32,197 nt of DNA. Source: Ignavibacteriota bacterium (GTDB lineage: Bacteria; Bacteroidota; Ignavibacteria; UBA10030). Position numbers and translations under genes: made by a program. The notes under the pieces are model-generated. The model saw nothing but the letters and a program-made list of their open reading frames with translations, was not told the DNA's origin and searched no databases. Position 1 is the stretch's first letter. Each line of letters begins with the position of its first letter. Shown here in pieces: positions 4,612-11,082 of this stretch. The stretch covers positions 1-32,197 of the forward strand of contig PLMS01000145.1 in assembly GCA_003142575.1 (NCBI GenBank). Direction: 5' to 3'.

Positions 4612-6876
4612 TTATTCCTCTTCTATCGGCATTTTCAATTCGATTGATTTGTAATATGCATTGAGAACTTCCTCGACGGATAAATCGATAATCGTGCCTA
4701 TCTGTAGTTGCCGTTTCTTTGTAATGATTCCAATTTGTTTTGCATCGATAGAAAATCTTTTTGCCTCCATCAAGATGCTTGTTAACTTCTCCGGTTTACA
4801 TGAAACTATAACTCTTGACTGAGATTCTCCAAATAATAAGAAGTCATGCCGAATTTTCTCTAAACTGTTTATATCAATCTGACATCCTAACCCTCCTGAT
4901 CCACTCAGACTTTCTACCAGTGTTACTGCCAATCCACCATCTGAGACATCGTGCATAGATCTGACGAGCCCTTGGATAGCAAAAGTCTGACATATCTTGT
5001 GAAGACGCGCTTCGTATTCTAAATCTATGCTTGGAGCATCACCAAGAGTCTCGTTCTGTCTCATCGCAAGATATTCCGAGCCACCGACTTCACCCAGATT
5101 AATACCCAATTCGATGATTATATCACCTGGTGTTTTAAATTCTGAATTTACTGCTTTATCGACATCATCCAACAAACCCAGCATACCTATAACAGGCGTA
5201 GGAATAATAGCTCCACTTGGTCCTTCATTGTAAAAGCTGACGTTTCCTCCAGTAACAGGCGTCGAAAATGTAATACATGCTTCTTTCATGCCAGCAATTG
5301 CTTCGACAAATTGCCAATAGATCTCAGGATCATAAGGATTACCAAAATTCAAGCAATTTGTTATTGCGATTGGCTTAGCTCCGACGCATGCAACATTTCT
5401 CGCCGCCTCTGCCACTGCTATCTGCGTTCCACGCCTTGGGTTCAAATATACAAATCGTGCATTACAATCAGTCTTAAGTGCTAGAGCCTTATTTGTTCCT
5501 TTTAAACGAATTACAGCGGCGTCTGAATCTGATAGTCTAACACTATTCGATCGCACCATCGAATCATATTGCTCATATACCCATCGCTTACTGGCTATCG
5601 ATGGTCGCTTCAACAAGTCGATTAACGTCTTATTTAAATCTTTCAGAATTGGTAAGGAAGATGAATTAAATTTTCTGCATTTTTCCAGGTATGCTGGTAC
5701 TCGTGTTTCTCGAATATAAACTGGTGCACCTCCCCCAAGAACAAGCGGATCTGCTGGAAGATTTGCAACAACTTCATTATTCAATCTGATTGTTATGTCA
5801 GGTTTATTCTCGACTATACCTATTATCTCTGATTCTATATCCCACTTATGAAAGATGTTAGCGACTTCTTGCTCGTGTCCATTCTTGACTATAAAAAGCA
5901 TTCGCTCTTGTGATTCCGATAGCAAGATTTCATAAGGCGTCATTTCCTTTTCGCGTAGAGGAATTTTTTCCAGATCAATTGTCATCCCTGATTTTCCTCT
6001 TGCACTCATTTCCGATGTGGAACAAGTAATACCTGCAGCTCCCATATCTTGTACACCGATAATATATCCACTTTCTATTGCCTCTAAAGTAGATTCGAGT
6101 AATATTTTTCCGGCAAAAGGGTCGCCTACTTGGACGGATGACTTCTTTGCTTCAGATTGTTCAGAAATTTCCTCCGATGCAAAGGTGGCTCCGTGAATTC
6201 CATCACGACCAGTTTTTGAACCTACGATCATGACGATATTCCCCTGTCCTTTTGCAATCGCTTTGGCGACTTTCCCGTGCTCTACAATGCCGACAGCCAT
6301 AGCATTTAAGAGTGGATTATCTCTGTAAGAATCGTCAAAATATACTTCACCGGCTACAGTTGGAACACCAAAGCTGTTTCCGTAATCAGCTATTCCTTTT
6401 ACGACACGTCTAAACAGGTGTCTTACTTTCGGATTTGCAAGTTCACCAAATCTTAACGAGTTAAGTACAGCAATCGGTCGAGCACCCATTGAGAAAATAT
6501 CTCGTAGAATCCCTCCAACTCCTGTTGCAGCACCTTGATAAGGCTCAACAGCTGAAGGATGATTATGGCTTTCTATTTTGAAAGCAACTGCTAGACCATC
6601 TCCTATATCAACGAGTCCAGCATTCTCTTCGCCAGCTTCTACTAACAAATGTGGACCTTTACGCGGTAATGTTTTTAACTGGGCAATCGAATTCTTATAG
6701 CTGCAATGTTCACTCCACATAACACTAAAGATACCTAATTCGGTAAATGTCGGCACACGGCCTAATATTGCATTAATACGGTCATATTCTTTTTTTAAAA
6801 GTCCATGTTCAAGTGCAAGTTCTAATGTGACTTTGGGATCCTCACCTCTACTCGGTTGATTCTTCGCTCTTTTCAT
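4612..6876 (-). CDS. purL: phosphoribosylformylglycinamidine synthase subunit PurL
   Basis: ATP-dependent amidation of FGAR to FGAM, step 4 of purine synthesis. At 754 aa it is the small PurL form that works with separate PurS and PurQ, neither of which is in this window. Diagnostic motifs: [11 protein letters not shown] (about 53-63), then [20 protein letters not shown] and the glycine-rich GAATGVGGI that follow, [17 protein letters not shown], and [12 protein letters not shown] in the second half. The repeated AIRS-like halves are complete. It is the last gene of the yqeY-to-purL chain, 30 nt after the biotin carrier gene. The ribosome-binding site (AAGG) is distant from the ATG. It converges on dapF, with no T-rich terminator between the two. 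Confidence 0.97.
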
Positions 6877-6906
6877 GTTTCAATAATTACCTTTATAATA
6901 AAATAT

Positions 6907-7482
6907 TTAAATCTCAATAATTCTTAGTAATTCATCATTTCGTTCAACTGTTGCACCTGGTTGGACGAATACCGATTCAATTTTGCATTGCTGCAATGTC
7001 CTGATTTCGTTTTCCATCTTCATAGCTTCAAGCACAAGCAGCACGCCGCCCATTTGTACAATCATGCCCTGATGAGCTAATACTTTTGTTATTAATCCCG
7101 GCATCGGAGCACGGAGAGTGATTGATTTCGAAATATGGGGTTTCCTAAGCAGCCACGATTGCGCGACCAAGGATCGTTGATCATCAACAATCGCCTCCAT
7201 CAATGAACCATTAACATTGACTTGAAGTTTCGAAGATAATTTCGTCGATACCGTTACTGATTTACTCTCGTAGAAGTCTGAGATCGTTATTTCAAAACTG
7301 GAGTCAAACAAATTCAAGGCATACATGTCATCTTTGATCTTTCGAAAATTGATTGTGTATGCTACATCATTTACCGTTACGCTTTTTCCATCACCTACGC
7401 AAACTTTATAAATTTCATTACTTATATTGACTAAGTACTCTCCTCTATTTAGCGCAACCCACTTATTCGCCTCTTTTTCCAT
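6907..7482 (-). CDS. biotin/lipoyl-attachment protein (biotin carboxyl carrier subunit)
   Basis: A 191-aa protein ending in a typical biotinyl domain (about 120-191). It has APMPGLI for the first half of the barrel and EAMKMEN, with K155 as the predicted biotinylated lysine. The first ~110 residues are beta-rich and lack a Pro/Ala linker, unlike AccB of acetyl-CoA carboxylase and more like carriers of acyl-CoA carboxylases or decarboxylases (propionyl/methylmalonyl/oxaloacetate type). The enzyme is an inference: no carboxylase or carboxyltransferase gene is nearby. The ATG at 7482 has AGAAGGA 6-7 nt upstream. That site, and the first 34 bases of the gene, lie inside the preceding 58-aa gene, which suggests translational coupling. 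Confidence 0.85.
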   Translation of the reverse strand: MEKEANKWVALNRGEYLVNISNEIYKVCVGDGKSVTVNDVAYTINFRKIKDDMYALNLFDSSFEITISDFYESKSVTVSTKLSSKLQVNVNGSLMEAIVDDQRSLVAQSWLLRKPHISKSITLRAPMPGLITKVLAHQGMIVQMGGVLLVLEAMKMENEIRTLQQCKIESVFVQPGATVERNDELLRIIEI

Positions 7483-7625
7483 TCTGATTCCTTCTTGACA
7501 AAGTTTTGTTTAGGATGTCTGCGAGGTATTGTTCCATGTTGAACCAATGCAGCTATAATAGCAGCTGCCATACGTTCTTTCTTTAATTCGTCTTGTTCTT
7601 TGTGATGTTCATTTATCTTTGACAT
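7449..7625 (-). CDS. 58-aa small protein, possible ancillary subunit of a biotin-dependent carboxylase
   Basis: A short gene between mutS2 and the biotin carrier gene. The ATG at 7625 is 7 nt after the mutS2 stop, and the stop is at 7449-7451, inside the carrier gene. The protein starts MSKINEHHKEQDELKKE, continues with an Ala-rich helix MAAAIIAALVQHG, then a basic, Pro-containing stretch and an end with W49 and KKRRISGLR. The layout 'Ala-rich helix, linker, W, R..GL' resembles the tiny epsilon/delta subunits encoded beside the biotin carriers of acyl-CoA carboxylases and Na+-pumping decarboxylases. This is a family-pattern inference, not a match. Translation is supported by tight packing and the 34-bp overlap with the next gene. 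Its own ribosome-binding site is weak, so it may depend on coupling from mutS2. Confidence 0.6.
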   Translation of the reverse strand: MSKINEHHKEQDELKKERMAAAIIAALVQHGTIPRRHPKQNFVKKESEWKKRRISGLR

Positions 7626-7632
7626 ATTTTAC

Positions 7633-10002
7633 TCATTTGAATTCAACAACAGTTACGCCTACGCCCCCCTCATTCCATTCACCTAACCGGAAAGTCTTTA
7701 TATGCGGATACGTTTGCAAAAATTCTCCTATTCGTTTTCGCAATACGCCTGTGCCTTTGCCGTGAATGATATCGACACGGTGCAAGCCTGCCACATATGC
7801 ATTGTCGAGGAAAATCTGCGCTTGTGCAATTGCATCATCACCGAAGAGTCCTCGGAGATCAATTTCGTTTGTAGCTTCTGGAGAAGTGATGGCAGAAGCT
7901 GAAACCATGTGCTGCACGTGTTTTTTGTGTTCTTTATGCAAATCGGTTATTACAATTCGCAGGCGTGTACTACCACAGAGAACAATCGCATGTTTACCTT
8001 GAATCTCTATAACTTCTGCTCGTTCGTGCCCATCGCGAATTCGTACTATATCACCCTTATCAATTGGTTCATTGTGCTGAGGGACTGACTGTTCTTCCAC
8101 AGTGATCTTTTGCAACTCTTCGCCAAGCTGCTTAAGCACCTGACGAGAAGAGCGGACGATTTCTCGCTCTGCACCGCTTTCGCGTATTTCTTTTACTGAG
8201 CGTTCCACTTTTATGTGTGCCTGTTGGACGATTTCTTTTGCCTCTTCCACCGCCTTTTTTCGAATTGTCCCTAACTCGCGTTTTAATTGTGTCATCTTTT
8301 GCTCGTATGACAGTACCAGTGATTCCAATCGTTCTTTTTCCTTTGATGTTTCACGGAGTTGACGTTGGTATTCCTGCGATTGTCGTTCAAGTTCAAGGAG
8401 GAGCGATTCGAGCTTTGTCTTTTCATCACCCACCTGCATACGTGCTTGATCTAAAAGATTGTGCGAGATTCCCAATCGCTCGGCAAGTTCAAACGCATAG
8501 CTACTGCCCGGCACACCACTTCGAAAGTGATATGTTGGCCGTAACGATTCCTGATCAAATTCCATGGAAGCATTGCTCATACCGGGTGTTTCATGTGCAA
8601 ACGCTTTGAGCACACCGTGATGTGTTGTGGCAATAGTGATTGCCTTTCGAGCAGTAAGCTCCTGCAGCACTACAGCCGCTAATGCACTTCCCTCAGATGG
8701 ATCCGTTCCTGCGCCAATTTCATCAATGAGTACCAAAGAAGACTCATCTGCCTCCTCGAGGATGTGACGAAGAGAAATGAGATGAGAACTAAACGTGCTG
8801 AGATCGTTTTCTATTGATTGATCATCACCGATATCGGCAAAAACATTTTGAAAGGGGAATACTTCTGACTCAGGACCAGCGGGAATATGAATACCGGCTT
8901 GTGCGCATAATGTCAAGAGACCAACTGTTTTCATTGCTACAGTTTTTCCTCCGGCATTTGGACCGGTGATGACAAGTGTTTCCTCGTCTTTACCTAATTC
9001 AATAGTGAGTGGAACTACTTGTTCTCTTTTAAGATGTCGTAAAAGAATAGGATGTCGAGCATCATGTAATTTTATACTGGGTATGGATGTAAGGGACGGC
9101 GGATTGCCGATAATTTCAATCGAATATTTTGCGCGTGCGAAAATGACATCAAGTTCGGTGAGAGCAGCGAAACTCAATTCAAGAGGTTCACGTATTTCAC
9201 CAACTTGCTTTGTGAGATCAGTAAGTATCCGATAGATCTCATGCTGTTCACGGAGTTGGAGTTCTCGCAGTGTATTGTTGAACGCAAGTGATTCAGCCGG
9301 TTCGATAAACACCGTTCCACCGCTGGCAGATGTCGAATGAATAAATCCGGGTACCTTATGCTTATATTCAGCTTTAACAGGAATGACCAAACGACCATCG
9401 CGCGTAGTGATAATATCTTCTTGGAGAAATTCCTGCTCAGAGACTTGCCGAAGAATTGATTCCAATCGTCGTCTCAATGCATCGGTTGCCGAGATGATTG
9501 AACGTCGAATCTCCCGCAATTCCCGGCTTGCAGTATCTTTTACAAATCCATGTTCGTTTAGTGCTTCGTTAATATGGTGCTCAACAATTTTATCCGAGAA
9601 TAACTGTTCGTGATATATTCCGATGGCTGGATATAGTGCGGCACGTTTTGCAAGAAACGTTTTGAGTGCCCGTGAAACGCGGATCGTGAGCGCGATTTCC
9701 AGCAGTTCCGTCACCGTGAGAACCTGATTCTCGACAGTAGTCTTCTTCAATGCAGCAACAATGTTCTTAAATCCTTCCAATGGAATAGTCCCTTCAGCGA
9801 TGAGCAGTTCTTTTGCTTCAGAGACCTTTCGTAATTCCAATTCGATTGTATTGCGGATAGTTTGTGGCACAAGCCGGAGAGTATGCAGACGACCTGATTC
9901 AGAAACAGTAAGTTCGCTTATGCGTTCAACGACTGTATGATATTCCAACTTGCTTAACGCGGCAATAAAGCTTGGTGGAAGATTTAAAGACTTTTGTGAC
10001 AC
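7633..10002 (-). CDS. mutS2: endonuclease MutS2 (Smr-domain MutS paralogue)
   Basis: A 789-aa MutS2, of typical length. It has an N-terminal clamp/core region, a MutS ATPase domain with Walker A GPNAGGKT (347-354) and Walker B LVLIDE (423-428) followed by GAGTDPSEGSALA, a long Glu/Lys/Gln-rich coiled coil (about 515-625), and a C-terminal Smr nuclease domain (about 713-789) with DLRG and HGKGTGVLR (from 747). The mismatch-recognition domain of MutS is absent, as expected. Known roles of the family are suppression of homologous recombination and, in some bacteria, splitting of collided ribosomes. The start is GTG at 10002; an in-frame stop lies six codons upstream, so no longer form exists. 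The ribosome-binding site is poor. It lies 68 nt downstream of cvpA. Confidence 0.95.
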   Translation of the reverse strand: MSQKSLNLPPSFIAALSKLEYHTVVERISELTVSESGRLHTLRLVPQTIRNTIELELRKVSEAKELLIAEGTIPLEGFKNIVAALKKTTVENQVLTVTELLEIALTIRVSRALKTFLAKRAALYPAIGIYHEQLFSDKIVEHHINEALNEHGFVKDTASRELREIRRSIISATDALRRRLESILRQVSEQEFLQEDIITTRDGRLVIPVKAEYKHKVPGFIHSTSASGGTVFIEPAESLAFNNTLRELQLREQHEIYRILTDLTKQVGEIREPLELSFAALTELDVIFARAKYSIEIIGNPPSLTSIPSIKLHDARHPILLRHLKREQVVPLTIELGKDEETLVITGPNAGGKTVAMKTVGLLTLCAQAGIHIPAGPESEVFPFQNVFADIGDDQSIENDLSTFSSHLISLRHILEEADESSLVLIDEIGAGTDPSEGSALAAVVLQELTARKAITIATTHHGVLKAFAHETPGMSNASMEFDQESLRPTYHFRSGVPGSSYAFELAERLGISHNLLDQARMQVGDEKTKLESLLLELERQSQEYQRQLRETSKEKERLESLVLSYEQKMTQLKRELGTIRKKAVEEAKEIVQQAHIKVERSVKEIRESGAEREIVRSSRQVLKQLGEELQKITVEEQSVPQHNEPIDKGDIVRIRDGHERAEVIEIQGKHAIVLCGSTRLRIVITDLHKEHKKHVQHMVSASAITSPEATNEIDLRGLFGDDAIAQAQIFLDNAYVAGLHRVDIIHGKGTGVLRKRIGEFLQTYPHIKTFRLGEWNEGGVGVTVVEFK

Positions 10003-10070
10003 TATGGATTCTGCGTCCTATCGGTCTTCGCTATTTGCCCGGTATTTCAATCTATTTATTTTCCGTTCCG

Positions 10071-10628
10071 TTAATGTTCATTGGATCGAGGAAGAACCTT
10101 ATTTCCTTTAGCTTTATCAGTAGAACCGGACGAGCCCACACCTTTAAGTTTATTGATTACATCGGGACCAACAGTCGATGTCATGTCCAAAATCTGTGGA
10201 GCGATATTTACAACAGACTTATAAAATTCTGAATCATGTTTGTTTTGACGGTCAGGAAAATCAGCCATTGCAAAGATAAAAAGCATTGAGCTGACAAAAA
10301 GGACTCCTTCAATGAAACCCAGGATTATTCCACCAATCCTATCGGCAATTCCTCCGATTTTGTAACATTTAGTGAGGATTCTATAAAGAAATCCCTGTAT
10401 GATTAGTAAACCTAGAAAAATTATCAAGAAACCATCCATTGGCGCATCTTCATGACTTACTCCACCGCGGCCGACTATGAAATTTCCGACATCACGCATA
10501 TATATCTGCCCTAAGATGAGACCGGCAATAATTACAATAATCGCAACAAGTTTCCGTACGATACCGTCACGCACGCCAAACAAAATACACATTAGGATTG
10601 GAACAAAGATTAAAATATCGAGTAACAT
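10071..10628 (-). CDS. CvpA-family inner-membrane protein
   Basis: A 185-aa protein with four hydrophobic segments (about 2-22, 26-46, 65-85, 100-125) and a polar C-terminal tail. The N-terminal pattern with VRDGIVRKLVAI and the later GGIADRIGGIILGFIEGVLFV are typical of the CvpA/colicin V production family, whose members are integral membrane proteins of poorly defined role. In many Bacteroidota and Firmicutes genomes cvpA lies directly before mutS2, as here. Its ATG is 4 nt after the yqeY stop, so the two are almost certainly translated from one mRNA. Confidence 0.85.
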   Translation of the reverse strand: MLLDILIFVPILMCILFGVRDGIVRKLVAIIVIIAGLILGQIYMRDVGNFIVGRGGVSHEDAPMDGFLIIFLGLLIIQGFLYRILTKCYKIGGIADRIGGIILGFIEGVLFVSSMLFIFAMADFPDRQNKHDSEFYKSVVNIAPQILDMTSTVGPDVINKLKGVGSSGSTDKAKGNKVLPRSNEH

Positions 10629-10632
10629 AGGA

Positions 10633-11082
10633 TTATTCTCCTAATTGCTGTTTGACTACTTCCTGAATGACCTTCCCATCAATTTTACCTTTTAACTCTT
10701 TCACAGCTACAGGCATCACCTTGCTAAAATCCTTCGAAGATGTTGCACCAATATTTCCGATTATTTTCTTGACAATGACTTCAACCTCTTCCCTGCTCAT
10801 TTGTTTCGGAAGATAGGTATTGATAATACCAAGTTCACGTTTTTCCTGGTCCGCGAGATCATTCCTTCCGGCTTTCTCGTACATTTCAATTGCTTCTTTG
10901 CGCTTCTTTGCCGCAGCAAGAAGCGCAGTCATTTCTTCTTCGGGTGTAATGCTTGTACCGGTTCCTCGTTTTGAAAGTTCAATCAATTGTGCTCGGATTG
11001 AACGAATCGTGTTTAACTTAACACTATCGCCGGATTTCATAGCAGCTTTTAAGTCTTTATTGATTATTTCTGTAAGAGCCAT
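10633..11082 (-). CDS. GatB/YqeY domain-containing protein
   Basis: A 149-aa protein matching the YqeY family. It has an N-terminal helical half with DLKAAMKSGDSVKLNTIRSI and a C-terminal half with INTYLPKQMSREE, GKVMP-like SKVMPVAVKELKGKIDG and EVVKQQLGE. It is homologous to the tail domain of GatB, which contacts tRNA in the amidotransferase. A stand-alone function is not established. The ATG at 11082 has GAGGA 7 nt upstream. It is the first gene of the chain yqeY-cvpA-mutS2-58 aa-carrier-purL. Confidence 0.93.
   Translation of the reverse strand: MALTEIINKDLKAAMKSGDSVKLNTIRSIRAQLIELSKRGTGTSITPEEEMTALLAAAKKRKEAIEMYEKAGRNDLADQEKRELGIINTYLPKQMSREEVEVIVKKIIGNIGATSSKDFSKVMPVAVKELKGKIDGKVIQEVVKQQLGE

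Follow-up and report, generated by a model that had tools for sequence, protein, structure and literature searches.

Small non-catalytic subunits strongly change the activity of biotin-dependent carboxylases. The window analysed here, a stretch of 32,197 nucleotides from an Ignavibacteriota genome (G000), poses three questions about a single small gene: what is the 58-codon open reading frame, here called ORF58, that lies between mutS2 and the gene for a biotin carrier, where does it come from, and what might it do for the carrier? We address these points in turn, using the following features.

A 58-codon gene between mutS2 and a biotin carrier gene

7449-7625, minus strand: ORF58, 58 codons from ATG to TAA; proposed BT helix-hook subunit corresponding to a free C-terminal tail of a biotin carboxylase (BC)
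7536-7583, minus strand: Ala-rich helix, residues 15-30 (KKERMAAAIIAALVQH); proposed central helix of the BT barrel
7452-7481, minus strand: proposed hook, residues 49-58 (WKKRRISGLR)
7449-7482, minus strand: overlap of ORF58 with the carrier ORF, 34 nt; the carrier ORF starts at 7482
7488-7493, minus strand: AAGGAA within ORF58, possible ribosome-binding site of the carrier ORF, read from the sequence
6907-7482, minus strand: carrier ORF of 191 aa (BT barrel and biotin carrier), second cistron after ORF58, with a Biotin_lipoyl match
7018-7020, minus strand: codon of Lys155, the biotinylation lysine in LEAMKMEN, an invariant column (K155) in alignment A1
7633-10002, minus strand: mutS2, the upstream neighbour (TIGR01069, 820 bits, cut-off 400)
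4612-6876, minus strand: purL, the downstream neighbour, named from reading its translation

The first-pass annotation, made from the sequence alone, placed the start of the small gene 7 nt past the mutS2 stop, gave it a 34-bp overlap with the next gene, and put the ribosome-binding site of the carrier inside it, without naming a strand. Both junctions hold: the ATG occupies 7623-7625 and is separated by 7 nt (7626-7632) from the mutS2 stop at 7633-7635, while the carrier ORF, starting at 7482, overlaps ORF58 by 34 bp. The candidate binding site agrees as well, with AAGGAA standing 5 nt 5' of the carrier ATG. Translated on the plus strand, the region 7449-7625 meets three stops. ORF58 has no Pfam and no NCBIfam match at E up to 10, and no membrane segment is visible on reading its sequence. 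A scan of 6700-10700 for promoters and terminators gave counts close to those of shuffled sequence (7 promoter-like elements versus 8.9 in shuffles, and 2 terminator-like elements versus 3.0).

The alpha subunit of PCC is built in the order BC - BT - carrier. In the ORF downstream of ORF58, residues 122-188 match Biotin_lipoyl with 51.1 bits and the LEAMKMEN motif is intact, and for the N-terminal half, positions 80-248 of a profile from the joined alignment (A3) align to residues 556-728 of human PCC alpha (7ybu). From this alignment and the domain order of PCC alpha, we conclude that the carrier ORF comprises the BT barrel plus the carrier.

ORF58 derives from the tail of a biotin carboxylase

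A search of 61 genomes yielded the carrier in 44, and we read 30 of the loci. At 28 of these the ORF upstream of the carrier is a BC frame, ending in the pattern ..AAA..AxL....WKxxR..xR; the two others, this genome and its congener G002, have ORF58 at the same position. A profile of the 28 BC tails, none of them from a congener, gives 32.5 bits for ORF58 and 34.1 for its copy in G002; among 20,000 shuffles of ORF58 the highest score is 13.5, and ORF58 ranks first among the 747 stop-to-stop frames of the window. The significant alignment spans residues 15-58, of which residues 15-30 match the conserved A-rich part of the BC tails; whether the first dozen residues also derive from the BC is uncertain. 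W49 is the sole invariant column in a 22-row alignment of tails, an invariance that is not independent in loci with the 34-nt overlap because W49 there partly overlaps the carrier start codon.

Gene order points the same way. It is mutS2 - BC - carrier - purL in G012 and mutS2 - ORF58 - carrier - purL in G002, and in six further genomes (G003, G004, G005, G006, G009 and G013) mutS2 adjoins purL with neither BC nor carrier between them. The BC starts just 3' of the mutS2 stop in 16 of 30 mutS2 loci, and an overlap of 34 nt between BC stop and carrier start, the same as that of ORF58, occurs in 10 of 27 relatives (starts were picked by rule, and the 28th locus was misassigned). The gene order of the relatives, the BC behind mutS2 and the shared overlap together indicate that the carrier junction of ORF58 is ancestral and its mutS2 junction new. 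With its 58 aa, ORF58 comprises the tail only, and the catalytic domains of the BC are absent. That ORF58 originated as the detached C-terminal tail of a PCC-type BC is thus strongly supported. The mutS2-then-BC neighbourhood is in itself widespread in the order (loci L083-L112) and has no obvious functional reason.

ORF58 has been kept by selection since its detachment

Because G000 and G002 share both junctions, which implies one deletion before the two split, the differences between their copies arose in the free-standing state. Frame conservation in relatives had been proposed beforehand as the check on this gene. In the one congener that has the gene the frame is kept, and outside the overlap, in codons 1-47, third positions account for 13 of the 14 differences (P = 6e-6, binomial versus 1/3); in codons 14-47 this is true of all eight, one of which changes the amino acid (P = 1.5e-4 versus 1/3). 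Of the five amino-acid changes in this non-overlapping part, four fall in the first 13 codons, so the N-terminus is much less constrained than the helix. By the Nei-Gojobori method, dN/dS between the two genomes is 0.12 for ORF58, compared with 0.105 for mutS2, 0.17 for the carrier, 0.08 for purL, 0.06 for PccB and 0.07 for AccC. All five alternative frames of the region contain stops; four of them differ at 13 or 14 amino acids, and one, on the reverse strand, at 5, equal to ORF58. ORF58 has therefore been under purifying selection since detachment, at a dN/dS like that of its neighbours. Together with the homology to BC tails, the third-position differences establish the 58-aa gene suspected in the first-pass annotation as genuine.

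These data bear on two explanations in which the peptide does not matter. According to one, the PCC locus is being lost in the genus and ORF58 is a decaying leftover that has stayed open by chance. Three congeners (G003, G004 and G005) have indeed lost the BC of this type, the carrier and PccB altogether, and just 58 codons of the BC survive here. In neutral simulations, however, amino-acid changes stayed this few, and the frame free of stops, in only 0.15-0.29% of runs for codons 1-47 or 2-47 and in 0.02-0.07% for codons 14-47, and not only ORF58 but also the carrier and PccB are conserved, which makes chance survival improbable. According to the other, ORF58 is a translational relay that lets ribosomes leaving mutS2 cross to the carrier start, whatever peptide they make on the way. 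The 7-nt gap, the 34-nt overlap and the internal AAGGAA are what such a relay would look like, but coupling needs an open frame and not change confined to third positions, and the RNA of the region shows no unusual fold (z = 0.35). We regard a relay as the sole role of ORF58 as unlikely, while translational coupling may hold in addition to a role of the peptide.

Which parts of the enzyme remain

Each of the six congeners has one gene with a Biotin_carb_C match, which in this genome and G002 adjoins an AccB-like carrier, and the AccC sequences read end in FDTKFIESFVF.., without a tail. The only BC found in this genome is accordingly the tail-less AccC of fatty-acid synthesis, and it is possible that a second BC lies in a gap, both assemblies being drafts (98.86% and 97% complete). 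Among 19 non-congeneric genomes of the family that have the carrier, 18 have two BCs, the exception being G023, which is 72% complete.

G000, G001 and G002 retain the carboxyltransferase PccB, which G003-G005 lack; the neighbours of PccB in G000, when listed, gave no lead. G001, also a congener, keeps PccB and is not informative on ORF58, as its assembly ends inside mutS2. In the family as a whole PccB is present in 25 of 32 genomes, counted by reading the matches (fragments at contig ends in G012, G020 and G029 were accepted, and a fragment of 47 positions in G028 was left out). The carrier accompanies it in 21 of these 25 and occurs in none of the seven genomes without PccB (P = 9.8e-5, with kinship ignored). 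In the four genomes with PccB and no carrier (G001, G007, G015 and G018) the locus is cut or missing. As a separate observation, G013 and G028 have a carboxyltransferase of a second type (about 480-490 bits) with one BC and no carrier of the ORF58-locus type, that is, a carboxyltransferase without an obvious dedicated BC.

A model for ORF58 as a helix-hook subunit supplied in trans

We propose, as the probable explanation of the locus as a whole, that ORF58 is a free BT helix-hook subunit, left behind by deletion of a BC, which docks the biotin carrier on PccB while AccC is shared. In this model, the genes stood in the order mutS2 - BC - BT/biotin carrier - purL in an ancestor common to this genome and one congener, until a deletion took the catalytic body of the BC and left its last ~45-58 residues as an ORF whose ATG came to lie 7 nt after the mutS2 stop. 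The peptide, which is under selection as a separate protein, would be translated and would most likely supply the central helix of the BT domain and the Trp-bearing hook in trans to the beta-barrel encoded by the next ORF. Judging from the gene order, the predicted helix and what has been published on BT anatomy, it would thereby dock the biotin carrier on the carboxyltransferase PccB, and gene content suggests that the carrier biotin is most likely carboxylated by AccC, shared between two enzymes. ORF58 would then look like a small subunit seen shortly after its formation.

The structural part of the model builds on what two papers describe. The BT domain of GCC consists of a long helix enclosed by an eight-stranded barrel, with a hook joining helix to barrel, and the Trp of the hook is buried in the beta subunit and mostly conserved in GCC and MCC (PMC4673880); the hook of LtPCC makes contact with the N-CT domain as well (PMC10148081). 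We base the proposed hook of ORF58 on the tail alignment and on its likeness to this Trp-bearing hook of GCC and MCC. In the split enzymes of the family, an Ala-rich helix, a spacer and a W make up the BC tail, which fills exactly the helix-hook stretch, and the barrel starts in the next ORF, so that helix and barrel would meet in trans already in the relatives; in this genome the BC itself has gone too.

A single-sequence AlphaFold2 model of ORF58 alone has helices at residues 2-30 and 40-55 (mean pLDDT 78), which supports the predicted helix and not a hook strand, residues 40-55 being modelled as a second helix. BT sequences are poorly conserved. Searched against PDB sequences, the tail profile found no structure at E < 0.1 (11 matches, the best at E 0.17, which we take as chance), and against 10 single-chain alpha subunits it gave no significant match and did not detect the BT helix. 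Given these two negative searches, equating the tail helix with the BT helix rests on position and not on a significant match.

A single chain of helix, hook and barrel could also be restored by a -1 frameshift in the overlap, fusing ORF58 to the carrier, which does lie in the -1 frame with TGG AAA AAG at the right place. Relatives that share the overlap do not, however, conserve the Lys-Lys codons and have WKQQR, WKDSR, WKASR or WLNLR instead, and the carrier has an ATG and an AAGGAA of its own, leaving a frameshift very improbable.

Pursuing the model of a helix-hook subunit acting in trans further, it is tempting to see here a natural fission, in which the BT helix and hook of a BC became a free assembly subunit, the dedicated BC was dropped, and AccC came to serve both acetyl-CoA and propionyl-CoA carboxylase; this wider scenario we offer tentatively, as a possibility falling somewhat short of even.

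Relation to known carboxylases and decarboxylases

The closest relatives of ORF58 are the BC tails of the split acyl-CoA carboxylases of the same family, which it resembles in sequence, in its slot before the carrier and, in the relatives noted above, in the overlap. It differs from them in that their tail ends a BC of ~500 aa, whereas ORF58 stands alone as a protein, and this genome yielded no BC that bears the tail. The BT domain in the alpha subunits of PCC, MCC and GCC likewise lies between BC and barrel and has an Ala-rich helix followed by a Trp-bearing segment (PMC4673880), but there all parts form one chain and ORF58 is a separate peptide.

The first-pass annotation had likened ORF58 to ancillary subunits of biotin-dependent (de)carboxylases, naming AccE/PccX and OadG/MmdD. 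The general part of this suggestion stands, in that ORF58 appears to be of the ancillary-subunit type of an acyl-CoA carboxylase and is tied to the carrier; membership of either named family is not supported. The AccE/PccE epsilon subunits of actinobacterial acyl-CoA carboxylases (PF13822) are small and non-catalytic, as proposed for ORF58, but their genes adjoin the beta-subunit gene and ORF58 stands before the carrier. PF13822 does not match ORF58, and matches two of 22 aligned tails weakly (best E 0.0033). A proposal of 2011, drawn from secondary structure alone, saw AccE/epsilon as a substitute helix for alpha subunits that lack a BT domain and called for functional confirmation (PMC3199775). 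In T. fusca the 8.7-kDa epsilon binds the carboxyltransferase rather than the BC-carrier subunit, and Vmax/Km rises about 5- to 20-fold with it (PMC7835884). By analogy, AccE is the nearest functional parallel, and ORF58 may work similarly.

OadG/MmdD, the small subunits of Na+-pumping decarboxylases (PF04277), in some cases end in an Ala-rich helix with a conserved Trp and precede the carrier gene, like ORF58, but ORF58 is without a visible membrane helix and the genus has no OAD_beta (0/6 genomes). Profile comparison by hhalign with C-termini of the OadG/MmdD type gave a probability of 43% over 17 helix columns only. ORF58 may thus work like AccE or like OadG/MmdD, and we place it in neither family. 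In four Bacteroidales-like loci (L164, L165, L179 and L205), the small ORFs or frames that precede the carrier share the C-terminal pattern (I)AAAI..AL....SPW.SKI. Of 11 such sequences in an alignment, six have a PF04277 match at E up to 10, the best at 5.3e-5, a hint that OadG/MmdD ends and BC tails might be one element.

In another genome, locus L153 (3243-5363) has a carboxyltransferase of 524 aa, then an 86-aa frame with an Ala-rich helix and a Trp at its end, and after it a carrier frame; no BC is present among its ORFs of at least 140 aa downstream to 10354. Read from sequence, this locus is a putative natural parallel to PccB + ORF58 + carrier. It also invites another interpretation, namely that PccB, ORF58 and carrier work without a BC, as a methylmalonyl-CoA decarboxylase or transcarboxylase. 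The list of parts would match, the same kinds of parts occurring in L153 and in decarboxylase operons with OadG/MmdD-like small subunits. Yet neither PYC_OADA nor OAD_beta has a match in any of the six congeners, with controls positive in 8/14 and 3/14, respectively, and ORF58 lacks a recognizable membrane segment; we see only a slight chance that the enzyme works in this way.

A further arrangement was seen in a Bathyarchaeota contig, L203 (1746-5486), with a PccB-like frame, a frame like a pyruvate-type carboxyltransferase, and a carrier, all named from reading the sequence. The carboxyltransferase-like frame itself ends in helix plus Trp (..AAISAAVAIY..SPW..), so at this locus the tail seems to be carried by a different enzyme.

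The free-standing tail is known from two genomes

We surveyed 98 genomes of the order with a tail profile including ORF58 at a cut-off of E <= 1e-3. Of the 34 matches, 32 lie in frames 197-622 aa long; the other two, in frames of only 59 and 67 aa, are those of this genome and G002. The 197-aa frame, in G050, was considered as a stand-alone tail and ruled out, its BC being broken by runs of N. Twelve weaker matches (E 0.0018-0.041, 98 genomes) include four in short frames, in G022, G043, G068 and G077 (E 0.016-0.041), which are at chance level, about five being expected at E <= 0.05 in 98 genomes; the short frame in G068 has no carrier motif nearby. The stand-alone tail is known from these two closely related genomes only, and we found no description of a free BC tail of this kind in open-licence PMC papers.

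Significance

ORF58 is a constrained gene of 58 aa that lies outside Pfam and NCBIfam and whose size makes it easily overlooked by annotation. The case predicts a shared BC. Moreover, since one family holds the intact ancestor, the deletion product and full losses, the helix-replacement proposal (PMC3199775) becomes directly testable by complementation with fused and split forms. If the fission scenario is correct, ORF58 would be a snapshot of how small subunits like epsilon and OadG/MmdD can arise, and such subunits would in essence be BT helix-hooks supplied in trans.
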